Below the pieces are notes generated by a model. The model had not been told where the DNA came from, made no database searches, and worked only from the letters and a program-made list of their open reading frames with translations. Shown here piece by piece: positions 5,230 to 53,157 of a DNA stretch of 64,000 nt. Every line of letters begins with the position of its first letter. Position 1 is the first letter of the stretch. A program made the position numbers and the translations under genes. Where the stretch lies: contig NZ_LT635783.1 of NCBI RefSeq assembly GCF_900128455.1, forward strand, positions 3,152,546-3,216,545, read 5' to 3'. The stretch is from Bacteroides mediterraneensis (GTDB lineage Bacteria; Bacteroidota; Bacteroidia; Bacteroidales; Bacteroidaceae).

Positions 5230-7692
5230 ATGAGACACAAAGCACTTGCACATTTCACAGGCATCTTTATTACTTTTTTGATTCTAAATGTATTCAACCT
5301 GCAGGCACAATATACCGTAAAAGGTACCCTCGTGGATTCGCTCACCCACGAAAGCGAGCCTTATGCCACCCTGCGCATTATGCTCGACAAATCGCCCGAC
5401 AAACCGATCCGGCTGAACGTGACGGATACCCAAGGGAAGTTTCAGGAAAAACTGCCTCACACCGGCAATTACACACTGCAAATCACATCCGTAGGCAAGC
5501 GCACCGTTATCCGCCACTTTACCATCACGGAAAACAAGCGGGTGGCCGATTTGGGCACGCTCTACACCTGCGACGATACCCAGATGCTGAAAGGCGTGGA
5601 AGTGGTGGCACAAAAACCGCTCGTAAAAGCGGAAATCGACAAAATTTCCTACAGCATAGAAGATGACCCCGATTCCAAGACCAACACCACCCTCGAAATG
5701 TTGCGCAAGGTACCCCTTGTCACAGTCGACGGGGAGGATAACATCCAGGTCAACGGTTCCAGCAATTTCAAGGTGCATGTCAACGGAAAACCCAACACAC
5801 TGATGAGCAACAACCCGAAAGAAGTGCTGCGAAGCCTGCCGGCCAATTCCGTCAAATCCATTGAAGTGATTACGGAACCGGGGGCCAAATACGATGCGGA
5901 AGGCATCGGAGGCATTCTGAACATTATCACCACCGATGCCAAGATGCAAGGCTACAACGTGACCCTCGGAGCCAATGCCAACAACATGGGCATTTCGGGA
6001 TATGCGTATGGCACGGTGCAGGTAGGGAAATTCACCCTCACCGGAAACTATTCCTACAACTACCAGGACCAGCCGCGCAGCCTCTCGGAAAGCGGACGCG
6101 AGGATTTCACATCTACCGACTACCGCCACCTGTCTACCGGAGGCTCTTCCAAGAACAAGGGGAACTTCCAGTTTGGAAACATTGAAGGAAGCTATGAAAT
6201 AGACACGCTGAACCTGATTACCTTCTCGGCCAACATTTTCGGAGGGAAGTTTGACACGCAAGGCGATTCGCATACGTCCATGAGCGACAACGAGTGGAAC
6301 GAACGCTACAGCTATCTCACCCGCAACCAGTCGACCAACCAGTTCGGAAACATCGGCGTGAATGCCGACTACCAGCACTCCTTCAAGAAGAAAGGAGAAT
6401 ACCTCACCTTGTCCTATAAATTCAACAATTCCCCCAACAACAACGAGGCAGACACTTATTACGACGAGGTGAAAGACGTGCCTTTCAGTCTGCCACACCA
6501 ATATTTCGACAACGAGGCCCACACGGCAGAGCATACCGCACAGATTGATTACGTCAATCCCTTTAACAGCGTTCACTACATGGATGCCGGAATGAAGTAT
6601 ATCTACCGCGAGAATTACAGTGACAGCCAGTACTTCCTGGAAAACGCCCAGGGCGAGATGGAGGCCAGCCAGGACCTTTCAAGCAAATACCAGCAGGGAC
6701 AGCACATTCTTGCCGCCTACGCGGACTACCAGCTGAAGTGGAAAAAATTCGGGGCGAAAGCCGGTGTGCGCTATGAGCACACGTTCATGGACGTGGAATA
6801 CGACTACATGCCCGAACGTAATTTCAAGGCCGGATTCGACGATGTGGTTCCCACCCTGAATCTCTCCTACATGCTGGGGATGAGCGCCACCCTCCGGGCC
6901 AACTACAACATGCGCATCAACCGTCCGGGTATATGGTACCTGAATCCTTTCCGCGACACCAGTAACCCCACGTCCGTCAGCTATGGAAACCCGGACCTGG
7001 ACACCGAAAAAGCACATATCCTCGGAATGACGTTCAACACCTTCAGTGCCAAGTTCAGCCTGAATGCCAACCTTACCTATACGTTCATCAACAACGGTAT
7101 CGAACGCTATTCCTTCATGAACAACGGGGTGCAGGAAAACACTTACGGCAATGTAGGAAAAAGCCAGCGCACACGCCTGGCCTTATGGATGAACTGGAAC
7201 CCGGGCAGCACCACCCGCCTCTCGCTGAACGCCGGCGGCGACTATGCCGACTACCGGAGCAAGGAATTGAACTCATACAACAGCGGATTCTCCGGAAACC
7301 TGTTTGCCAACGTACAGCAGACCATCCCCTGGGAGCTACGCCTCAGCCTCTATGGCGGCGGAAGCACCCCGTACGTGTCGCTGCAAGGAAAAGGCTCTTC
7401 CTACTACTATTACGGCATCAACCTCAGCCGCTCCTTCCTGAAAGAAAAGCGGCTGAACATCTCGCTCTTTGCCAGCAGCATTTTCCAGAAATACAATTCC
7501 TACCGCAGCGAAACCGTGACCGATACCTTCCGCTCATGGTCGAACAGCAGTTATCCTTCCCGCAGATACGGCATCAGCATCAGCTGGCGGTTCGGTGAAC
7601 TGAAGACACAGGTGAAAAAGACACAGCGAAGCATCACGAACGACGATTTGAAGGCAGGCGGCGACAACAAGACAGGCGGAACGATGCAGTAA
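5230..7692 (+). CDS. TonB-dependent-receptor-like outer-membrane barrel (OMP_b-brl_3)
   Basis: 820 residues from MRHKALAHF, with a signal peptide ending at about NLQAQ. An N-terminal carboxypeptidase-regulatory-like beta domain (about 27-110, YTVKGTLVDS to VADLGTLYTC) is followed by a plug-like domain (about 120-235: KISYSIEDDP, LRKVPLVTVDGEDNI, IEVITEPGAKYDAEG). The rest is a long barrel with aromatic-ended strands. This matches the outer membrane beta-barrel family (PF14905 type) related to TonB receptors. There is no SusD partner next to it, so it is not a standard SusC/SusD pair. An AraC-type regulator follows 38 bp downstream and may control it or respond to the same signal. The ligand is unknown. 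Confidence 0.85.
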   Translation: MRHKALAHFTGIFITFLILNVFNLQAQYTVKGTLVDSLTHESEPYATLRIMLDKSPDKPIRLNVTDTQGKFQEKLPHTGNYTLQITSVGKRTVIRHFTITENKRVADLGTLYTCDDTQMLKGVEVVAQKPLVKAEIDKISYSIEDDPDSKTNTTLEMLRKVPLVTVDGEDNIQVNGSSNFKVHVNGKPNTLMSNNPKEVLRSLPANSVKSIEVITEPGAKYDAEGIGGILNIITTDAKMQGYNVTLGANANNMGISGYAYGTVQVGKFTLTGNYSYNYQDQPRSLSESGREDFTSTDYRHLSTGGSSKNKGNFQFGNIEGSYEIDTLNLITFSANIFGGKFDTQGDSHTSMSDNEWNERYSYLTRNQSTNQFGNIGVNADYQHSFKKKGEYLTLSYKFNNSPNNNEADTYYDEVKDVPFSLPHQYFDNEAHTAEHTAQIDYVNPFNSVHYMDAGMKYIYRENYSDSQYFLENAQGEMEASQDLSSKYQQGQHILAAYADYQLKWKKFGAKAGVRYEHTFMDVEYDYMPERNFKAGFDDVVPTLNLSYMLGMSATLRANYNMRINRPGIWYLNPFRDTSNPTSVSYGNPDLDTEKAHILGMTFNTFSAKFSLNANLTYTFINNGIERYSFMNNGVQENTYGNVGKSQRTRLALWMNWNPGSTTRLSLNAGGDYADYRSKELNSYNSGFSGNLFANVQQTIPWELRLSLYGGGSTPYVSLQGKGSSYYYYGINLSRSFLKEKRLNISLFASSIFQKYNSYRSETVTDTFRSWSNSSYPSRRYGISISWRFGELKTQVKKTQRSITNDDLKAGGDNKTGGTMQ

Positions 7693-8613: not shown

Positions 8614-8723
8614 AAACGTTTTGAAGACCGTAAAAAAACGCAAGTGCGTTTTGCTCAAAACGTACTTGCGTTTCAAGTAAAACGTCCTTGCATTTTAAAC
8701 CAAACGCACTTGCGTTTTCACAT
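8614..8723. repeat. Five-unit array of 22-bp direct repeats with palindromic 16-bp cores
   Basis: Units begin at 8614, 8636, 8658, 8680 and 8702, exactly 22 bp apart. The core is AAACGCACTTGCGTTT, an inverted repeat of AAACGCA around two bases. Units 2 and 5 are perfect palindromes; units 3 and 4 vary at one to three positions; unit 1 is degenerate after AAACGTTTTG. The array ends about 45 bp before the GH31 start. A 22-bp period is about two helical turns, so bound dimers would sit on one face of the DNA. It could be an operator array for the neighbouring AraC-type protein or another regulator, or a dispersed intergenic repeat. Confidence 0.8.
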
Positions 8724-26959: not shown

Positions 26960-28258
26960 CTATTTTTCGGACGGGCATTTCCGCTGTTTCACCAGCTCCG
27001 GATAGTTTCTCCGGACATACCCTCCCAAACTCTTCTCGTTCAAGTCCAGCCGCCGTGCAATTTCTTTCAGTGTATCCGTCGTAGTGGCATACAGACGTAT
27101 CGCCTCCGCATATTTGTCTTCACTTCGATGTAACACCTTCCGCCCTTCTTCCGTCACCGTCATCCCCTGCCGGCGGGCCAGTTCCGGCTCATATTTGTGA
27201 AGGTAGTTTCTGAACGTTTCCGGATGCAGATGAAATTCCGCAGCCACCTGTGCCACCGCCCGTGGATTCGCTTTCAGGCTTTCAATCGCCTCTGCATATT
27301 TGGCTGTCACTGTCTTCATCCGTCGGCGTTCCCGGCACAAATTCGTATGTGCGTCTATCGGTCCTGTTATACCAGCACGCTCAGCCACCAACTCTTTATG
27401 CCACTTATGCAGATAAAAACGAAAGCCCTCAGCCGGTACCCCCGTACGCCGCACAATCTCTTTCAGCGTCAAGGCCGTATCTTTGTAAAGCGCCAACGCC
27501 TCCGCATATTTCCGTTCCGTCTGCGGTAAAGGCCGGTAGATACGTCCGTTCCCCGTCAGATTTCCCTGCAATTGGCATCCCTTTGCCGCTTTCCGGGATT
27601 CCCTTTTCTGCTGCAGCAATTCTTTATGGTAAAAACGCAAATACTGCATCAATCCCCCCACCGAAAGCTGGCACACATCCGCAATCTCCGGCAGCGTCGT
27701 ATTCGTGGTCTGGTATAATTTCACGGCTTCCGCATACTGTTCCACACTCTCCATGCGTGCCCCACGCCGGAGGTTGTCATTAATTCCCAGCCGGACACGT
27801 ACCTTCTCACGCCACACCAGCGTATCCTCATAATGAATATGCATGAAATTGGCCAGCGAAGCCCCGTCCACTCCAAACTTACGTGCCACCTGAGACAGGT
27901 TCAAATCGATATATTCCAAAGAATCACAAGCTGCTACAGCCTCCTTGTACTTCTCATGTGCATTCACATTCTGTTGGCCGACAGCCTTAATCTTCAGGTT
28001 CTCCAGCTGCTTTCCCTCCGCTGAAATATGATTTCGCTTCAGTACCAGCTCCCGCCAGTAACGACGCAGATAATTCCCCAATCCCCCTACCGACACACGG
28101 CAGGCTTCTGCAATGTCCGCCAGTGTCTGGTCGGTATCCGCATACAGCTCCACCGCCTTCTCATATTTGCAATGAAGCGCATGCCGGCGCAACAACCTTT
28201 CCTTTTCTTTGCCCGTCAAGGAAAAGGTTTCCGATTCAAAGCCCTCAAGAGGATTCAT
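26960..28258 (-). CDS. Protein of six helix-turn-helix-like repeats in the capsule operon
   Basis: 432 residues from MNPLEGFESE; the open frame extends 37 codons upstream into the previous GT gene's tail and has no support. Six related segments of about 46 residues lie at about 30-75, 101-152, 172-219, 249-295, 319-365 and 380-425. Each has the pattern KYxEAxxLY..TxxTLxEIAxxxxVxxxGLxxYLRxxxxELVxxR, which reads as an HTH with two extra helices. The linkers are variable, basic and long. It looks like a homeodomain- or resolvase-like DNA-binding repeat protein. It lies between two GT4 genes (gaps 36 and 20 bp) with good operon packing. I do not recognise a named family; function in capsule control is inference. 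Confidence 0.8.
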   Translation of the reverse strand: MNPLEGFESETFSLTGKEKERLLRRHALHCKYEKAVELYADTDQTLADIAEACRVSVGGLGNYLRRYWRELVLKRNHISAEGKQLENLKIKAVGQQNVNAHEKYKEAVAACDSLEYIDLNLSQVARKFGVDGASLANFMHIHYEDTLVWREKVRVRLGINDNLRRGARMESVEQYAEAVKLYQTTNTTLPEIADVCQLSVGGLMQYLRFYHKELLQQKRESRKAAKGCQLQGNLTGNGRIYRPLPQTERKYAEALALYKDTALTLKEIVRRTGVPAEGFRFYLHKWHKELVAERAGITGPIDAHTNLCRERRRMKTVTAKYAEAIESLKANPRAVAQVAAEFHLHPETFRNYLHKYEPELARRQGMTVTEEGRKVLHRSEDKYAEAIRLYATTTDTLKEIARRLDLNEKSLGGYVRRNYPELVKQRKCPSEK

Positions 28259-28278
28259 AGTGATTGGGTTTCGTGCGG

Positions 28279-29514
28279 TTACCCCCGCATTGTCAGTTCG
28301 TCGTACAAACGGATATAATCCGCATAACGGTCTTCTTTCTTGAAATGCGCCAACGCATATTCCCGGCACCGGCCTTGGTAATAAGCTTTTCCCCGCTGTT
28401 CCACCTGCCGTGCCGCTTCCAACAAGCCTTGCCAGTCACCTTGTTCCACCACAAAGCCCGTCTCTTCCGTCACCGCTTCCACACTTCCCCCCGTCCGGTA
28501 CGTCACTACGGGAGTACCACAGGCAATCGCCTCCATATTCACCGTAGGATAATTATCCTGCCAGGTGGGATTGATGAACGCATCCGCAGCCGCATACAGT
28601 TCCGCCAGCTGCCGTATATTTTCTGTCCGGGCTATCCCGACCACCTTGCCGGGCAGTCTTTTTCTTTCTTCCGGCTTGACTCCTACCAGCACAATGAGCT
28701 CATCCTCCCGCAACCGTTCCGCCATCTGGATGAAATCGTCCAGCCCCTTCTCCTTACTCCAGATACTGGCTACCCCCAGCAGCACATGCTTGTTTCCCAG
28801 TCCATACTTCTTCCTTACTTCCGTGGAGTCATACACCTGAAACGCCTCCGTATTGATGCCATTGTGAATCACCCGGAAATCATATCCGCGGAAAAACGAT
28901 TGCTGCATCTCCGACTTAATCCACTCGGACACCGGCACCATAACCAACCGGTCTTTCGGCATGGAAGTAAACGCCTTCCGCTTGTCCTCATAATTTTGTT
29001 CGCTCCGGTCATGCCACAAACTCGTCGGGAACAGTCCGCGCTGCGGGCAATCATGACACCCTTCCTGCCAACGGTTGCACCGCACATACGAATAATAATA
29101 ACAATGCCCCGTGTACAACCAGCAGTCGTGTACCGTCCATACCACCGGGATGTCACATTTTGCCAGATAATCGAACAAAATCCGGTAATTCAGGAAATAC
29201 CCATGAATGTTGTGGATATGAATCACGTCTGGCTTTATCTGTTCCATCCGTCGGATAAACTGCCGGGTAGCCCCCGAAGAAGCCAGTCCGTGTGCGTCCA
29301 GCAACCGCGTTTTCACGCCGTGCCACGCCACGCTCCACTTGTTGCCCACCGGCACCAGTTTCGAGGTGCACGGCTTGATGCCATCCCGTCCGCGGCTGTA
29401 GGCAATATAGCTTTCCCAACCATTCCGAATGGCCAGTTCCCCAATTTCCTGCATGATACGTCCCGTTGAAGTAGAGATCCTCAACACAGGATTTATCTGA
29501 AGCAATTTTTTCAT
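28279..29514 (-). CDS. Family 4 glycosyltransferase
   Basis: 411 residues from MKKLLQINPVL, with its ATG overlapping the previous gene's stop. GT-B domains: the acceptor half has DVIHIHNIHGYFLNY and VWTVHDCWLYTGHC, and a CxxC-containing loop (CNRWQEGCHDCPQRG). The donor half has LLGVASIWSKEKGLDDFIQMA and INPTWQDNYPTVNMEAIACGTPVVTYRTGGSVEA. The NYPTxxxEAxACGTPV pattern is the GT4 donor site. It acts in capsule repeat-unit assembly. Linkage and sugar are not predictable from the motifs. Confidence 0.88.
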   Translation of the reverse strand: MKKLLQINPVLRISTSTGRIMQEIGELAIRNGWESYIAYSRGRDGIKPCTSKLVPVGNKWSVAWHGVKTRLLDAHGLASSGATRQFIRRMEQIKPDVIHIHNIHGYFLNYRILFDYLAKCDIPVVWTVHDCWLYTGHCYYYSYVRCNRWQEGCHDCPQRGLFPTSLWHDRSEQNYEDKRKAFTSMPKDRLVMVPVSEWIKSEMQQSFFRGYDFRVIHNGINTEAFQVYDSTEVRKKYGLGNKHVLLGVASIWSKEKGLDDFIQMAERLREDELIVLVGVKPEERKRLPGKVVGIARTENIRQLAELYAAADAFINPTWQDNYPTVNMEAIACGTPVVTYRTGGSVEAVTEETGFVVEQGDWQGLLEAARQVEQRGKAYYQGRCREYALAHFKKEDRYADYIRLYDELTMRG

Positions 29515-45868: not shown

Positions 45869-47400
45869 TACTTATTTAATTTAACTATAGTTATAAGCTT
45901 ATTAGATATCATTTCCCGCTCTGTTTCTTCCAAGCCCAATACATATATTACAGATATAGTTGAAAAAAAACTGATAATACAGATTACACACAATCTAAGA
46001 AATCCTTCCTCAAGAAAATACAACACTAATAATGGCATTACAAAAGAAACAACAGAGACTATACTAACCTTCAGAATAACATTGAATATATATAATTTTA
46101 TCGGAAAGTCCATCAGACCTCTTGCAATGTAGGCTCTGACAAAATTTAAAAGGAAATAAATGACAATGTATATTATATACGTAGCTTCAGGAGGAAAACC
46201 CAATTTAAAAGCAATCCATGTCAATGGAAAAACAAAACAGCCAGTAACTGTTATCCAAATTTGATATCTTTTTATGTTTCCTGTGGCCTGTATAGCTGTG
46301 AGCATTGTGTTGCCCAACAAGGTTATTAATGTACCGAATAACATCAATCGTAAAAATGTCGGTGCATACTCAGGAACAGTCTTTAGCCAAAGATGTAGAA
46401 TATAATCAGTCTCACATACAATCGGTACGGCAAATATCAAAAGGAGAAAATAAGAAAAACGGGCACCACGGCAAACTAACTTATTCATATATTCTCTATC
46501 TCCTGAAGCATACGATTTTGTGATTTGAGGATTGATAGCTACCGTAAAATTACCCACAAACTGCATGACCGCATTTTGTACCTGTGAAGCAACCCCTTTT
46601 GCAGCGTTGAGTGTAACTCCGAAAAAGATATTGATGAGCATATCTACTCCTTGCGTGTTGAGCATATAGGCAGTATTACCAAAAAAACTCCAGCCGGCAA
46701 AACCAGTCATTTCTTTTATCAAAGGTCTATCACATATAAACTCATAGTGACTTTCAATAAAGTGTTTATTACAATACCATCCATATATCAATCGCATTAT
46801 CAAAGAAACCACAACAAATAATACGGCATAGCTTATAAGTTTATCATAGGGAGAGATGAAAAGCATGTAAACTATAGCCAACTTCAAAATAGTTTCCAAG
46901 ATACTCATATATGCAAAGACGGACATCCGTTCATGAGCTATAATACAAGCATTATAAGGAACACTAATGAGACCGATGGCAAATGACAAAAGTGAGCATT
47001 GAAAAACCCAATTGGCAGCAACCAATCTACCTGCCGGGATATTCAATTTGTGATTGACAAACCAAACTCCTATACATTCGGCGAGTATCACAATAATCAG
47101 TGCTATACCGATTTGAATGTTTACACTTGTAGAAAAAATCCGTTTTAACTTAGTGATATCACCATGCCCCAGCTCGTATGTGATAAAGCGACTAATGGAC
47201 GAAGAGAGGGAACCAGAAATGACAGAAAACATGCCGACGACTCCACCCACCACATTACTAATACCAAAATCGGAAACTCCCAACGTGTTCAATATCACAC
47301 GGCTTGTATATAGTGACACCAACATTGTAAATAAAGTGCGCACATACAGCATCAACGTATTCTTGGCAATCCGCTTGGTATTTTCCGACTGTGAGGTCAT
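45868..47400 (-). CDS. wzx: Capsule repeat-unit flippase (Wzx / MATE-like)
   Basis: 510 residues with 12-14 membrane segments in the polysaccharide-transport (Polysacc_synt) arrangement. It begins KNTLMLYVRTLFTMLVSLYTSRVIL and shows FGISNVVGGVVGMFSVISGSL, then a second half with a similar pattern (WSFFGNTAYMLNTQGVDMLINI). It would flip lipid-linked repeat units across the inner membrane for polymerisation by the Wzy-like protein. Second gene of the operon, 23 bp after upxY; its stop overlaps the SDR start. Confidence 0.92.
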   Translation of the reverse strand: MTSQSENTKRIAKNTLMLYVRTLFTMLVSLYTSRVILNTLGVSDFGISNVVGGVVGMFSVISGSLSSSISRFITYELGHGDITKLKRIFSTSVNIQIGIALIIVILAECIGVWFVNHKLNIPAGRLVAANWVFQCSLLSFAIGLISVPYNACIIAHERMSVFAYMSILETILKLAIVYMLFISPYDKLISYAVLFVVVSLIMRLIYGWYCNKHFIESHYEFICDRPLIKEMTGFAGWSFFGNTAYMLNTQGVDMLINIFFGVTLNAAKGVASQVQNAVMQFVGNFTVAINPQITKSYASGDREYMNKLVCRGARFSYFLLLIFAVPIVCETDYILHLWLKTVPEYAPTFLRLMLFGTLITLLGNTMLTAIQATGNIKRYQIWITVTGCFVFPLTWIAFKLGFPPEATYIIYIVIYFLLNFVRAYIARGLMDFPIKLYIFNVILKVSIVSVVSFVMPLLVLYFLEEGFLRLCVICIISFFSTISVIYVLGLEETEREMISNKLITIVKLNK

Positions 47401-47423
47401 AGCTGAAAAAATTACGGTTTCTA

Positions 47424-48014
47424 CTACTGAATATACTCCGGATCCACCTCCACGGCTGCCGTCAGGAGATTAGGCAGTTCCACGAAAAGATGTTTTGCAT
47501 GCGCTCCCTGTATCTTCTGCAAATATCCTTCGTAGCCATCCAAAGGGCCGCCCACGATTCTCACCTTCTTGCCAACCATGGAAGGCTTTATTTCCTCCGG
47601 AGTATAGAAACAAGGAGCACTCATGGTACTTACCGCCTTTATGAAACGTTCCATCTCCTCCGTTCTCACCGTCATGGGCATGCTCATCCCACCTCTGACA
47701 AAGCGATATTGAAGAGTGGGTATCTGCTCCACAATAGGGTCGAGAGTCTTGCGTGAATCGTAAACGAACAACAAATCTTGCATGAAAGGAACCAGCTGAG
47801 GAATCCGCTTGCCACGACGAACAACGGTTTTCCACACCATAGGCGTAAAAAACCTGATATTCAATTCATCCAGCAGTTTATATGCCGGACACTTGGCATT
47901 GCTTCTCTTCAAGTCGCGCATGACGAACCATTGAGGCAATGTCTTTGTGTCTGTAGGCGACTGCAAATCATTGGTTTGTAGATTGCCCTGACCAGGCTGA
48001 CAGAAGTCTTTCAT
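47424..48014 (-). CDS. upxY: UpxY-family transcription antiterminator
   Basis: 196 residues. An NGN domain at about 27-125 (QWFVMRDLKRSNAKCPAYKLL at its start, PFMQDLLFVYDSRKTLDPIV later) and a KOW motif at about 142-178 (MVGKKVRIVGGPLDGYEGYL). This is the UpxY group of NusG paralogues, which prevents premature termination in the cognate capsule operon. It is the first gene of the operon. No UpxZ-type gene follows it; the flippase gene comes next. The gap upstream up to 48186 precedes the invertible segment. The 170-bp gap is AT-rich and would be the leader. Confidence 0.95.
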   Translation of the reverse strand: MKDFCQPGQGNLQTNDLQSPTDTKTLPQWFVMRDLKRSNAKCPAYKLLDELNIRFFTPMVWKTVVRRGKRIPQLVPFMQDLLFVYDSRKTLDPIVEQIPTLQYRFVRGGMSMPMTVRTEEMERFIKAVSTMSAPCFYTPEEIKPSMVGKKVRIVGGPLDGYEGYLQKIQGAHAKHLFVELPNLLTAAVEVDPEYIQ

Positions 48015-48185
48015 AGTTCAATATGGGGTATACTCTCTAATCCTGCAAGCTGTAATAAATCGCTAAACAACAAGCAGTTACAACACACCTTATCAGAAAA
48101 ATAATATTCCTCCCCTCACATTTTCTCCCAATCTTCTCCATTTCATGAGCAAGAATGAGATTCTCTCTTTTGCAATCATAAAGAT

Positions 48186-48202
48186 TATCTCCTAAGATGA
48201 GA
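48186..48202 (+). repeat. Left arm of the capsule promoter inverted repeat
   Basis: TATCTCCTAAGATGAGA, the exact reverse complement of 48751-48767. Outside the 17 bp the match stops at once. Confidence 0.9.
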
Positions 48203-48416
48203 TAATGGACTACCAATTAATCATTAAATATCAAATAATTAAGCATTTCAGACCAACTATTTTGGTCAACAAATCAGGATTCTTTTGAATACAAGTATAA
48301 AACTGACACATAGAACTAATGTTTATCTACAAAATATACAACTAACTAGAACTTAATTTACAGCCATTCAATTATCCAAACTCAATAAACGAATTTTTTA
48401 AAACTTCATGGGATAA

Positions 48417-48506
48417 TCTCTGTCCCATAGTGTGGTTTTTATATCCCACAGTGTGAAATACAAATCTCACACTGTGGGATATATATTTCACAGTGTGGGA
48501 CAGAGA
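48417..48506. repeat. 90-bp imperfect palindrome with four CACAGTGTG-like motifs
   Basis: Two outer arms (TCTCTGTCCCA, 48417-48427, and its complement 48496-48506) and a perfect 16-bp inner inverted repeat (48441-48456 and 48467-48482, ATATCCCACAGTGTGA) share one centre, with a 10-nt loop. Four motifs of the type CACAGTGTG result, one per arm section. It lies within the invertible segment, upstream of the promoter. As DNA it may be a regulator binding site or cruciform. Confidence 0.85.
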
Positions 48507-48571
48507 ATTTTCTTATAGATTCAAGGAAATAGATAGGAAGAAAAAGGATTTTCTGAAAAGGCAGAAACAGG

Positions 48572-48607
48572 TTCCCGCCATTGGTCAGACCGAATCAATG
48601 GCGGGAA
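48572..48607. repeat. 11-bp inverted repeat within the invertible segment
   Basis: TTCCCGCCATT / AATGGCGGGAA with a 14-nt loop. There is no T-tract on either side, so it is not a standard terminator. It could be a binding site or a transcript structure. Confidence 0.6.
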
Positions 48608-48705
48608 TCTTGTCAGAAATCAGATGTGACGGTACGGCCTCCATTAACGAACGTGAGGCGTTCGAAAAATGTATAAATTATGAATGAAATAAAGATTTAA
48701 AAATA

Positions 48706-48735
48706 CTTGAATATAAATTTAATTTCCTATCTTTG
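48706..48735 (+). promoter_or_regulatory. Capsule promoter, present orientation reading away from upxY
   Basis: CTTG, 18 bp, TATCTTTG: a good Bacteroides -33 / -7 pair. It is 16 bp from the right inverted repeat and faces the 3' end of the recombinase gene, so it drives nothing useful now. Confidence 0.75.
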
Positions 48736-48750
48736 CCGCGATGAAGACTG

Positions 48751-48767
48751 TCTCATCTTAGGAGATA
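48751..48767 (-). repeat. Right arm of the capsule promoter inverted repeat
   Basis: TCTCATCTTAGGAGATA. It lies between the promoter and the end of the recombinase gene (48788). Confidence 0.9.
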
Positions 48768-48787
48768 TCCCATTTATACACAAGCAT

Positions 48788-50002
48788 TTAAAGGTCTCTC
48801 AGGATTTTCCGGTTGGCCCTGTCCACCTCTTCCGACTTGATGGAATCCAGGTAAATTTGCGTAGTGGCTTCCGAATCGTGCCCCAACCCTTCACTGATGA
48901 CAGACAGAGGTATGGATTTCCCTCTGGCTATTGTGGCCCAACTGTGACGGCTATAATACAAGGATAAAGGGACAGACAAACGCATGAGAGAGGCAACCTC
49001 CTTCAGGCTGCGGTTTATCTTCATCATCTGATTCTGATACTGACGGCGTTCGCTGCCGTCTTCACGGACAATCAGGGGAAGAAGATACCGGGTGGAATTG
49101 CCCTTGTACTTGTCTATGAGCGACTGCATCTGCCGGGTCCACTCTATGGTGAGCAGCTGGCCGGTCTTTTTCCGACGGTAAATGAGATAGCCGTTCTTCA
49201 AATCGCTCTTCCTGAGATAGGCCATGTCCACAAACGACATGCCGCGGGTGCAAAAACTGAAAATGAACATGTCGCGGGCAAAATCCAAAGCCGGCTTGAG
49301 GGACAAGTCCAGCTCTTTCATCTTTTTTATCTCGTCGAACGACAGGCATCGCTTCACCGTTTTGTCCATGCCGCAATACACGTGCTTGAAGGGATGGCAA
49401 TCTTGCGTAAGCCCTTTTTCTACCGCCAGTTTGTAGTTCGTACGCAATATGCGCAAATAGAAGGAACTGGTATTCCGCACGACTCCCCGCCTCCGCAATT
49501 CCGCCTCATAAAGTTCCATCAACTCCGAATCGAACATATCGAAAGTCAAATCGACTCCTTGCCTGAAATTCATGAAGCTGTTAAGAGTGGCCTGGTAGGT
49601 CTCGCTGGAACGTATCTTCCCCAATTGCTTTTTACGCAGAATCTGGCTTCGGATGAAATGGAACACACTGTATTCCTTATTTATATAAGGATTGTATTTC
49701 CGTATCACCAGGTCGAGGTTCCATTCTTTTCCGGAACGCTCAAACGTATCGATTATCTTTCCGAGACGCCTGAGCTCCCATTCCACATTATAACGTATGA
49801 CATGCAACTGGCCACATCGGGATGGGTCGGAGGTCGCCAATGCAATCCGTCCGGCAGTATCGTCCCATTCCTCCTTGTAAATCTTATATTCACTCTTGAT
49901 TCTGCGGACCTTACGCCCACGAATCAACTGAAATATCAGTGAACCGGCCTTTCGTGGATCCACTGATGCCCTAAATTTTAGCTTGATGGATGTTCTTTTC
50001 AT
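48788..50002 (-). CDS. Tyrosine site-specific recombinase (integrase family)
   Basis: 404 residues. An N-terminal arm-type domain and a SAM-like core-binding domain (about 100-200) precede the catalytic domain (about 215-400). Catalytic residues visible: Arg in SFCTRGMSF, Lys in IYRRKKTGQ, the Arg in LYYSRHSWAT (where the usual first His is Tyr), His in GLGHDSEATT and the nucleophile Tyr in TQIYLDSI. This is the Bacteroides family that inverts promoters and mobilises integrative elements. Its stop is 21 bp from the right inverted repeat, so it is the likely invertase for the capsule promoter. No phage or conjugation genes are nearby. A GGAAAG ribosome site precedes its start. Confidence 0.92.
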   Translation of the reverse strand: MKRTSIKLKFRASVDPRKAGSLIFQLIRGRKVRRIKSEYKIYKEEWDDTAGRIALATSDPSRCGQLHVIRYNVEWELRRLGKIIDTFERSGKEWNLDLVIRKYNPYINKEYSVFHFIRSQILRKKQLGKIRSSETYQATLNSFMNFRQGVDLTFDMFDSELMELYEAELRRRGVVRNTSSFYLRILRTNYKLAVEKGLTQDCHPFKHVYCGMDKTVKRCLSFDEIKKMKELDLSLKPALDFARDMFIFSFCTRGMSFVDMAYLRKSDLKNGYLIYRRKKTGQLLTIEWTRQMQSLIDKYKGNSTRYLLPLIVREDGSERRQYQNQMMKINRSLKEVASLMRLSVPLSLYYSRHSWATIARGKSIPLSVISEGLGHDSEATTQIYLDSIKSEEVDRANRKILRDL

Positions 50003-50075
50003 ACTTTCCTTAGTACTTTTTTTGTTAATTACAATTTCTCAAAAAATAACCATTAGTAATAGCAATAAAATAATT

Positions 50076-50111
50076 GGGCAAGCCTTGACTTCTCTAAGTC
50101 TAGACTTGCCC
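50076..50111 (-). terminator. Likely terminator of the PEP/pyruvate-binding gene
   Basis: A hairpin with outer stem GGGCAAG / CTTGCCC and inner GACTT / AAGTC. On the minus strand it is followed by AATTATTTTATT. It sits between the 50191 stop and the recombinase start. Confidence 0.6.
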
Positions 50112-50190
50112 CTGCACCTGAATGTATAATTTGTATTCCACTGATGAACAAACAAAAAAACGATTCTGTTTGTTCAACTTGCCAATTTAC

Positions 50191-53157
50191 TCAACTTTCC
50201 GGCAATTCGACCACACCCAGTTTTTTCTTGCCGTCCATCTTGACGGAAAGCGGCTTCTCAAACCGTACCCAGCGGAGGAATTTCGTTTCTTCCACGGCGG
50301 GCATGCTGTCGAGCAATGCCTGATTGTAGATACCGTCGTTCATATAGGCATTGATGGTGAAATAGCCCACCCCGAACGAAGTCAGGTTCTGGAAGAAATG
50401 GGTGCCCTGACTGGGGTCTACCCGGTAGTTGGTCAGCCCGGCTTCCACGATAATCCGGGCTGCCGAAATGTTGGGCCATTTCACCGGTATACCAAGCCAG
50501 GTATCGCTGCTGCCCCAGCGTCCGGGACCCACCAGAATGTAATGCTTTCCTTCATCGAGGAAGCGGCGGTTGAGCTTTTCGATGTCGTAGGCTATCAGCT
50601 GGTTGTTGGAGGCAGAATAGCCTTCGGTCTTCACATAGATGACATCCTGTAGGTCGTCCATCACGCCATGCCCCAGTGAGTTTTCGCTCTTGAGCAGGAG
50701 CTTTTCTTCCGGCACCTGAGTCAAGTCTTCATCCAGCCCGGCTTTCACATCGACCATCGGACGGATTTGCAGCAGATAGAACACGCCGCTCTTGGTACGG
50801 GCATCCAGATTGACGGCAAACTCGATTTCTACCGGACGGCGCATCTCGCCCTGACCGTATTTCTGTACGAGCTGGAGAATCCGGGCCAAGGGGAAGACGT
50901 CGTGCTGGAGGATGTTGGCAAAGGTGATGAGCTTGCGCCCGCCGGGATAGATGCCGTCGCGTATCACCATGTCATACGGGTCGTAGGTCGAGGCGATGAA
51001 GTTCAAGGCGCCGTCGGCTTCGGCATCTTTCACATGGAGCTTCAGCAGGTTGAACCCGTCGTCGAGCGAGAAGTTCTGCCCCAGGTTTTTCAGGTCGAGG
51101 GCATAGAAGCGGGTCTGTGTCTCGCGCAAGGCGATTTCCATCTCGCTGGTCTGGAGCACCTGCGTGGGGTGGTACGGACAGACACGCAAGGTGAGGCCGC
51201 CGTCGACAATGTATTTCCCGAGTCCCAGCGCCAGGCTCACCGTGCCTTCTTCGGCCAGTTCGTCGTTGATGGGATAATAGTTGATGGAGCGGGCCACACC
51301 GGATATGGCCGGATAGTAACGGTCGCCATACTGGGTGCCGACCACTTCCTGAAGGATGACGGCCATCTTTTCCTGGTCGATGACGTTGCTGGTGGCTTGC
51401 ATGTAGGCCTTGCTATCCTTATAATATACGGAGGCATACACGCCCTTGATGGCATCGCTCAGCATGCGGAGCATCTCGTACTTGTCGTCCAGATAGGGAA
51501 TCATGTAGGTGGAATAGATGCCGGCAAACGGCTGGTAGTGGGAGTCTTCCAGCAGGCTGGACGAACGGATGGCAATGGGGGCCTTGACGGCATCGAAGAA
51601 GGCGAAAAAGTCTTCCACCAGACTGTCGGGCAGCTTGGCCCGGAGGAAAGCCTGCAGAATCACGTCGTCGGCGGCATCGCTCAAGGCTATCTGGTACAGC
51701 TGGTTGGAGTCCATGAACTCATCGAACACATCGGTACAGAGCACCACGGTTTTCGGAATCATGACCGAGGCGTTTTCAAACTCGTCGAACTCGGGATGAC
51801 GCTTCACCATATTGTCGATAAAGGCCAGTCCGCGCCCTTTTCCTCCCAAAGAGCCGTCGCCGATGCGGGCAAAATTGGAATAACGGTCGAAACGGTCGCG
51901 CTGGAACACGGCCACCACGCCCTGGTTTTTCATCTTGCGGTATTTCACAATGGCTTCGAAAATAATCTGCCGGTGCGCATCAATGTCCTGAAGGGATTCC
52001 CACGTAATCTGTTTCAAGAACTCGGCCACCGGGAAGATGGCACGCGAATACAGCCAGCGCGAGATGTGGTTGCGGCTGATGTGGTAGAGGAAGGACTCTG
52101 CCGGAATGGCGAAAATCACGTTCTGGAGTTCTTTCAGGTTATGGATGCGGGCCACTTCCTTCAGGGTATGGGGGTCGCGGAAGATGAAGTCGCCGAAACC
52201 GAAATTGTCCGACACGGCTTCGCGCAGGTCGATGTTCATCTTCTTAGAGTTTTTGTCGATAAACACGGCATCCAGTTCCGGGGCATATTGGCGGTTGCTT
52301 TCTTCGGCCGACTGCAGAATCAGCGGGATGAATGGGTCGCGCCTGCGTATCTCACGCAGCAAGCTTACCCCTGCCTCCGCATCGTTTTCGCCTTCACGGG
52401 GGAAACGGGCATCGGAAATGACGCCCAGCATGTTGTTCTGGTACTTGTTATACAGGTCCATGGCTTCCTCGTACGAACGGGCCAGCACGATTTTAGGACG
52501 ACCGCGCATGCGCAGCGTACGCTGGTGCTCGTTCAGGGCTTCGGTGGCAAACTCCTGGCTCTGTCGGAGCACGAACTTATAGAGATTGGGCAGCACGGAC
52601 GAATAGAAGCGGATGGAGTCTTCCACGAGCAGAATCATCTGTACGCCAATTTCCTTGATGTCGTGCTCCAGGTTCATCTTGTCCTCAATCAACTTGATGA
52701 TGGAGACCAGCAGGTCGGTATTCCCCAGCCAGCAGAACACGTATTCGAAAATGCTCAGGTCCTCGTGTTCCATCCGTTCCTTGATGCCATGCGAAAAAGG
52801 AGTCAGCACCACCAGCGGCAGATGGGGATACTCCCGCTTGATGTCGCGGGCAATGTCGAAGGTGTCACTGTTGTCGGAACCCGGCATACAGATGACCAGG
52901 TCGAACATGGTGTTGCGCAACTGCTCCCAAGCTTCCTCTCCCGTAGACACCTGGGTGAAACGGGGCGGATAGCGCAGGCTCAGGTTCATGTATTCATTAA
53001 AAATCTTCTCATCGATGCGGCCATCGTCTTCGAGCATGAACGCGTCGTACGGATTGGCCACCAGCAGGACGTTGAAAATACGCTTTGTCATCAGGTTGGC
53101 AAACTGCGTATCCTTGAAATAAAGCTGCCGGAGTTTAATTCTCAGGTTGTTTAGCAT
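50191..53157 (-). CDS. PEP/pyruvate-binding-domain protein with two receiver-like domains
   Basis: 988 residues. Residues about 27-155 form a receiver-like fold (FNVLLVANPYDAF, DLVICMPGSDNSD). Residues about 173-305 form a second one with more complete receiver residues: E179-D180 in MILLVEDSIR, D249 in GVISDARFP and K302 in FIDKNSKK. From about 430 an ATP-grasp of the PPDK/PEP-synthase type begins (RIGDGSLGGKGRGLAFIDNMV), with APIAIRSSSLLEDS and later PVEIEFAVNL and YLLQIRPM. The swivelling phospho-His domain and PEP-binding barrel are absent, so it cannot do the full PEP synthase reaction. It may be a phosphotransfer or signalling protein. Annotated PEP synthases in databases may hide this. 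Confidence 0.85.
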   Translation of the reverse strand: MLNNLRIKLRQLYFKDTQFANLMTKRIFNVLLVANPYDAFMLEDDGRIDEKIFNEYMNLSLRYPPRFTQVSTGEEAWEQLRNTMFDLVICMPGSDNSDTFDIARDIKREYPHLPLVVLTPFSHGIKERMEHEDLSIFEYVFCWLGNTDLLVSIIKLIEDKMNLEHDIKEIGVQMILLVEDSIRFYSSVLPNLYKFVLRQSQEFATEALNEHQRTLRMRGRPKIVLARSYEEAMDLYNKYQNNMLGVISDARFPREGENDAEAGVSLLREIRRRDPFIPLILQSAEESNRQYAPELDAVFIDKNSKKMNIDLREAVSDNFGFGDFIFRDPHTLKEVARIHNLKELQNVIFAIPAESFLYHISRNHISRWLYSRAIFPVAEFLKQITWESLQDIDAHRQIIFEAIVKYRKMKNQGVVAVFQRDRFDRYSNFARIGDGSLGGKGRGLAFIDNMVKRHPEFDEFENASVMIPKTVVLCTDVFDEFMDSNQLYQIALSDAADDVILQAFLRAKLPDSLVEDFFAFFDAVKAPIAIRSSSLLEDSHYQPFAGIYSTYMIPYLDDKYEMLRMLSDAIKGVYASVYYKDSKAYMQATSNVIDQEKMAVILQEVVGTQYGDRYYPAISGVARSINYYPINDELAEEGTVSLALGLGKYIVDGGLTLRVCPYHPTQVLQTSEMEIALRETQTRFYALDLKNLGQNFSLDDGFNLLKLHVKDAEADGALNFIASTYDPYDMVIRDGIYPGGRKLITFANILQHDVFPLARILQLVQKYGQGEMRRPVEIEFAVNLDARTKSGVFYLLQIRPMVDVKAGLDEDLTQVPEEKLLLKSENSLGHGVMDDLQDVIYVKTEGYSASNNQLIAYDIEKLNRRFLDEGKHYILVGPGRWGSSDTWLGIPVKWPNISAARIIVEAGLTNYRVDPSQGTHFFQNLTSFGVGYFTINAYMNDGIYNQALLDSMPAVEETKFLRWVRFEKPLSVKMDGKKKLGVVELPES

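Follow-up and report, generated by a model that had tools for sequence, protein, structure and literature searches.

Invertible promoters placed in front of UpxY-led capsule operons are a known kind of locus (PMC13114119, PMC12118408, PMC8748976), and the available text of one report calls such a locus typical of gut Bacteroidales capsule loci (PMC13114119). As far as the same excerpt goes, Phocaeicola vulgatus CL10 carries a promoter between inverted repeats upstream of an upxY-led locus of a predicted 30 genes, with a recombinase gene upstream; inversion was demonstrated there by PCR, and both orientations were found in faecal pellets of mice (PMC13114119). Tyrosine-invertase/UpxY capsule loci in Bacteroides xylanisolvens and loci linked to an integrase in Parabacteroides distasonis likewise combine an invertase or integrase, inverted repeats of 17-20 bp and an antiterminator gene in first place, with putative invertible regions of 280-345 bp in the accessible part of that description (PMC12118408). 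In Bacteroides fragilis, the excerpted account likewise has inverted-repeat-flanked promoters driving UpxY-led capsule operons, and a single global invertase, Mpi, serves seven loci (PMC12632263). Invertible promoters of resistance genes in Bacteroidales, including Phocaeicola and Paraprevotella, also join an invertase, an invertible promoter and upxY, and are said, in the portion available, to share their origin with the glycan/upxY switches (PMC8748976). According to partial texts, UpxY prevents premature termination in the leader (PMC7819879), and capsule switching has been connected with phage permissiveness and gut fitness in Bacteroidales (PMC12118408, PMC13114119).

Here, we analyzed a window of 64,000 nucleotides from the genome of Bacteroides mediterraneensis (contig NZ_LT635783.1), and we hold with high confidence that it contains a site-specific ON/OFF switch of a capsule operon, that is, a phase-variable promoter stored in the OFF orientation. 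This explanation is preferred because UpxY scores over its profile cut-off, the recombinase residues are intact, the module recurs, and both orientations occur in relatives; the same four observations support the original prediction of a match to phase-variable capsule loci. As in the described class, a promoter flanked by inverted repeats lies immediately upstream of the operon, and an upxY-family gene comes first in a polysaccharide operon. The locus differs from that of P. vulgatus CL10, whose adjacent recombinase is defective in the text available (PMC13114119), in that its recombinase is intact, and from those of B. xylanisolvens and P. distasonis, whose repeats (GTTACTTCTTAGGTAACGGA; GCTACTYRGNRAGTAGC) recur at several loci per genome according to the excerpt (PMC12118408), in that its 17-mer is confined to a single locus. 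Unlike the B. fragilis loci with their global invertase (PMC12632263, in part), it has a linked recombinase and a locus-specific site. As an example of capsule phase variation, the locus is intact and has a linked recombinase, and the site family of that recombinase can be written as TCTC-N7-GAGA with a locus-specific core. Mpi is a serine recombinase, and the gene linked to the present locus encodes a tyrosine recombinase, not one of the serine type.

The left recombination site, TATCTC-ctaagat-GAGA (48186-48202, + strand), reads GATTATCTC-7 bp-GAGATAATG together with its neighbours, and its arms, neighbours included, are symmetric at eight of nine positions as read from the sequence. The right site (48751-48767, - strand) repeats it perfectly in inverted orientation, the 7-bp core included. 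The two copies are complementary at 17/17 positions with 548 nt between them, and they enclose a putatively invertible segment of 582 bp (48186-48767), its inversion being deduced from relatives. In 500 dinucleotide-preserving shuffles of positions 48015-48787, the longest perfect inverted repeat measured 8-10 bp in 436 cases, the maximum of 16 bp was attained once, and 17 bp was never reached. The perfect 17-bp repeat around a 582-bp segment that had been proposed is confirmed. A scan of the whole window yielded one other 17-bp pair, at 8635-8718, whose arms are themselves nearly palindromic. In the 4.08-Mb assembly, the 17-mer has exactly two copies, both at the ends of 48186-48767, and the next best match carries two mismatches; two viral contigs matched among those scanned, which is close to the chance expectation by a rough estimate made without computation. 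Each site consists of inverted arms, TCTC and GAGA, around the 7-bp core CTAAGAT, and short inverted arms around a short core are the form of a tyrosine-recombinase site. The repeat, which had not been recognised originally, can now be assigned to the TCTC-N7-GAGA family of sites that accompanies this recombinase clade. None of the papers searched contained the site or repeat strings, and the novelty of the string is minor at most. The segment also contains a separate inverted repeat at 48569-48610, with 15-nt arms that match at 93%, located between a 90-bp dispersed element and the promoter.

The promoter (48707-48735, + strand), with TTG at 48707-48709 and the -7 box TATCTTTG at 48728-48735, is of what we take to be the Bacteroidales type (TAnnTTTG/TTG). 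Its box is the sole TAnnTTTG match in positions 48015-48787 when both strands are scanned, and as stored the promoter points away from upxY (47424-48014, - strand), that is, OFF both by score and by distance; the distance from the end of the -7 box to the segment end is 32 bp, compared to 25-35 bp in the 14 relatives in which the orientation was called. A scan for E. coli-type promoters did not list this promoter, which is of the Bacteroidales type, and was replaced by the TAnnTTTG scan. With the start placed 7 nt past the -7 box, transcription would begin at approximately 48742, or at approximately 48211 after a flip, giving a predicted leader of ~197 nt to upxY. Thus, the original prediction holds in that the only strong promoter (there 48706-48735) is directed away from upxY, and in that a flip would give a leader of about 200 nt ahead of a 28-kb operon. 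The further claim that the sequenced cells were not expressing this capsule goes too far: what an assembly displays is the majority orientation or a chosen one, so absence of the capsule from every sequenced cell does not follow. Laboratory stocks of the strain may be mixed or OFF, and as far as the sequence goes, a weak promoter outside the segment may exist.

The operon comprises same-strand frames that run from 48014 down to 19581, ~28.4 kb. Its first gene, upxY (47424-48014, - strand), encodes a transcription antiterminator with a NusG domain that scores 127.8 bits against the NF033644 profile, for which the cut-off is 100. The rest of the operon (19581-47400, - strand) holds a flippase-like gene, glycosyltransferases, a UDP-galactopyranose mutase, pyruvyl and acyl transferases, an initiating sugar transferase, an export protein and a Wzc-like kinase, and its product would presumably be a capsule. 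The flippase-like gene is the second in the operon, and its MatE match lies below the cut-off of that family. The upxZ gene is often, not always, second in such capsule loci; the PF06603 (upxZ) profile had no match in this genome, and likewise none in any control genome. No resistance gene was found among the operon frames scanned. A frame of 469 aa within the operon (26960-28369, - strand) matches a dozen Pfam families of helix-turn-helix type in scattered stretches and no sugar enzyme, which makes it an unusual protein for a capsule operon. NF033644 matches three proteins in the genome, two of them over the cut-off. Upstream of the second of these (L049), no inverted repeat of at least 11 bp was found in the 1.5 kb examined, and a promoter-like site there is directed towards upxY; the match below the cut-off (L051), which we take to be the housekeeping nusG, likewise showed no inverted repeat of at least 11 bp in the 1.5 kb upstream examined.

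The gene next to the right site (48788-50002, - strand) encodes a tyrosine recombinase of 404 aa with a SAM-like N-terminal domain and an integrase catalytic domain, and its protein is the putative inverter. Its position beside the right repeat is as predicted, whereas its stop codon is 20 bp, not 21 bp, from that repeat. R-K-R-H-Y is the catalytic residue set of tyrosine recombinases. The query was aligned with 30 relatives, from which L070, L073 (both with in-frame stops) and L083 were dropped; across the resulting 28 proteins, the window's included, K279, R352, H375 and Y384 are kept in 28/28 and R253 in 27/28 (L075 has C). These domains and residues, together with cognate inverted sites around a short core, mark the protein, by sequence, as a recombinase of the tyrosine site-specific (invertase) type. 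The adjacent recombinase need not be the acting enzyme, because the genome holds 19 further matches besides the protein itself (20 in total, some perhaps pieces of one gene), and because the capsule promoter of P. vulgatus inverts even though its neighbouring recombinase is broken, according to the text available (PMC13114119). Inversion by another recombinase of the genome, with the adjacent gene as a passenger, is nevertheless unlikely: the other 19 matches cover part of the query at only 20-37% identity, and recombinase and site travel together across species.

This joint conservation was followed in relatives of the recombinase at 24 loci, comprising 21 with at least 60% identity and three from Dysgonomonas with 37-39%. 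A TCTC-N7-GAGA-like site is located 3' of the gene, within ~300 bp, in 20 of the 21 closer relatives, some of these sites having been read by eye; the first site mostly lies 20-50 bp past the gene (~255-275 bp in L055 and L069), and none was seen after the gene of L070. At 17 of the 21 loci (among the 24) that have at least 359 bp of downstream sequence, a perfect inverted repeat no shorter than 15 bp begins within 450 bp after the gene, the exceptions being L064, L069, L070 and L074; the upstream control scan gave 0/18 loci (of the 24). One locus outside the 24, L081, does show an inverted repeat of 18 bp upstream, on the control side. At L058, L059 and L068, the contig ends 102-133 bp past the gene, with the first site present in all three; such breaks would fit mixed orientations and prove nothing. 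Among 14 further loci on the minus strand (L076, L080, L083, L087, L089-L093, L098, L101-L104), 13 have downstream sequence, and 11 of these 13 carry a perfect inverted repeat that is at least 15 bp long, that of L093 sitting in a stretch unlike the family site; the repeat of L089 is 12 bp long, L102 has none, and the downstream sequence of L098 is only 12 bp. The core varies between loci and is identical at both sites of one locus. Tyrosine recombinases as a rule require identical cores for strand exchange, and a core common to the two sites of a locus is expected on that basis. If the core is an address that ties each recombinase to its own switch, it would help explain how several switches per genome are kept separate.

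An upxY gene lies downstream of the recombinase at 15 of 53 loci, in which frames of at least 80 aa were searched by BLASTP with the window's UpxY as query, at 55-67% identity. After removal of the duplicates L077, L078 and L079, 12 are distinct (11 from the 24 recombinase loci, and L081), and this count is a lower bound, since 14 of the 53 loci were searched on the opposite strand, one of which, L080, repeats L071. L053, L061 and L065 keep the switch and the leader element described below, with no UpxY-like frame of at least 80 aa in the downstream stretch examined; by our own reading, L053 and L061 have a HAD-like frame in that place. The segment measures 179-213 bp in most relatives versus 582 bp here, and longer ones are seen in L054 (313 bp), L057 (564 bp), L061 and L071 (258 and 246 bp, both to the outer site) and the Dysgonomonas loci L072 and L073 (515-516 bp). 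In L057, from position 7204, there appear to be two tandem switch units whose 70-bp inverted repeats carry promoter copies, one in the OFF and the other in the ON orientation, and a leader hairpin lies between the units, ahead of upxY. Ahead of upxY in L071 (7188-7460), three sites share one core, and another promoter-like stretch separates the second site from the third; this may be a switch that can take more than two states. In L064 (3580-3980), the first site is present, the second was not found, and a transposase-like frame (our own reading) occupies the place of the segment; this is a probable broken switch.

The orientation of each relative was called from the better promoter match that had the end of its -7 box 25-35 bp inside the segment end, the distances of L061 and L071 being measured to the inner right-hand site. 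Of 18 relatives with the repeat (17 of the 24, and L081), eight are ON (L052, L053, L060, L061, L062, L067, L071 and L081), six are OFF (L055, L056, L063, L065, L066 and L075) and four are uncalled (L054, L057, L072 and L073). The score alone left L054, L057, L062, L072, L073 and L075 open, and the distance rule, which was added post hoc, settled L062 and L075. The flipped order, for which a comparison of related genomes had been proposed, was found in two natural sets that come from different species and not from one culture. The segments of Paraprevotella clara (L060, ON) and P. xylaniphila (L066, OFF) are identical at 160/171 positions when one is flipped and at 79/172 when it is not, while their flanks are collinear (28/31 and 159/169). 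The second set consists of five genomes of the window's genus group, with a recombinase 49-50% identical to that of the window and another site, TTTCTTAGACAGAGGGA: L091 matches L086, L087, L090 and L092 at 166-170 of 179 positions flipped and at 72-74 unflipped, with collinear flanks (left 32/32, right 194-195/200). Across both sets, identity is 93-95% flipped versus 40-46% unflipped. We regard these natural flips as the strongest evidence that the architecture can invert. The switch regions of L086, L087, L090, L091 and L092 (179-bp segment) are nearly identical past the recombinase in these five genomes of different species, suggesting recent horizontal transfer.

A former invertible promoter that has become fixed OFF in this lineage, with decay marked by the segment's length and its inserted repeat, is very unlikely. 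The segment is about three times the usual 179-213 bp and holds the 90-bp dispersed repeat, and the arrangement of L064, with a transposase-like frame after the one site found, indicates that such decay seems to happen. However, the sites of the present locus match at 17/17 positions, the recombinase is full-length and retains its catalytic residues, the promoter and the leader are both intact, and long spacings also occur in L057 and the Dysgonomonas loci. That the repeat arose by chance or has another role (operator, terminator), with a fixed promoter of an unannotated rightward RNA, would agree with an assembly that shows one orientation only, but is made extremely improbable by the shuffle test, the conserved module and the natural flips. 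The switch is real and intact, and it is very probably functional.

For the phase-variable promoter, the following mechanism can be proposed. The recombinase (48788-50002) would bind the TCTC/GAGA arms of both sites, and strand exchange within the identical core CTAAGAT would invert the 582 bp. In the stored OFF state, the promoter would fire rightwards, antisense into the 3' end of the recombinase gene, leaving the operon presumably silent. After a flip to ON, the ~197-nt leader would be transcribed, followed by upxY and the capsule genes to ~19.6 kb, and a hairpin of 42 nt in the leader would probably pause RNA polymerase while UpxY loads. The scan listed no terminator-like site between the OFF promoter and the recombinase 3' end, and in most relatives the first site is equally close to the recombinase gene. 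A state-sensing switch, in which antisense transcription damps the recombinase and so stabilises OFF, is conceivable at low probability; the four-dyad 90-bp element might add the binding of a protein that also binds at 19 other places.

The leader hairpin (48038-48079, - strand; AACTGCTTGTT...GCAGGATTA, full element AACTGCTTGTTGTTTAGCGATTTATTACAGCTTGCAGGATTA) lies between the left site and upxY. The element was found in 13 distinct relatives and the window, always with a length of 42 nt even though the search pattern allowed other lengths; L055 has a similar leader element that the pattern missed. In the chosen stem (columns 7-18 with 30-41), 84.3% of cells pair versus 78.4% in shuffles (0/500 as high), and both-sided changes number 12 cells versus 4.5 (0/500 as high), whereas further pair types, 10 versus 8.8, are within chance (131/500 as high). 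Altogether, four of five stem measures exceed the shuffles (0, 5, 0 and 0 of 500 as high); because the stem was drawn after viewing the alignment, these controls lean towards it. A shift of the stem by -1 still left 5 pairs, with changes on both sides in 8 cells. RNAalifold proposed another stem of 5 pairs (C10-G42 and on), without both-sided changes, and we prefer the counted one; the two stems share bases, and thus either may form. Rfam on 46500-50600 gave nothing on the leader. In 2024, Saba et al. (cited in PMC12691694) reportedly described that UpxY loads at paused polymerase, aided by leader hairpins. The present hairpin shows covariation and is a probable element of pausing or UpxY recruitment.

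Two features are particular to the locus: the site is found nowhere else in the genome, and the long segment contains the 90-bp dispersed repeat (48417-48506). The latter has four CACASTGTG-like dyads spaced 21 bp apart, approximately two helical turns, and ends in TCTCTGT/ACAGAGA. It occurs at 20 places in the genome, its own copy included, and the other 19 are beside unrelated genes. Among the 18 of 20 copies that were read, the length between the end motifs is equal in 16, the other two differing by where the pattern caught the ends; with copies cut at 90 bp, the dyads start at position 10 in 17/18, 31 in 18/18, 52 in 16/18 and 73 in 13/18. Five of the 18 copies lie inside a frame of at least 90 aa under a crude choice of frames, and these frames are taken as spurious. 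The arms of the window's own copy are 84% complementary. We rejected the idea that the family is maintained as a long hairpin, because complementarity within a copy is not above that between copies: 0.724 versus 0.768 for 43-nt arms (1996/2000 permutations as high), 0.808 versus 0.815 for 22-nt arms (1504/2000) and 0.638 versus 0.719 for the inner units (2000/2000). Nor is there support for an operator shared by genes of one theme, as no theme was apparent in the 20 of 34 listed flanking frames that were scanned (17 copies). Rfam on 46500-50600 returned eight matches, all of them microRNA families over this element and all below the gathering score. The element is also present in other genomes of the genus, with many matches in two of them (G022 and G039).
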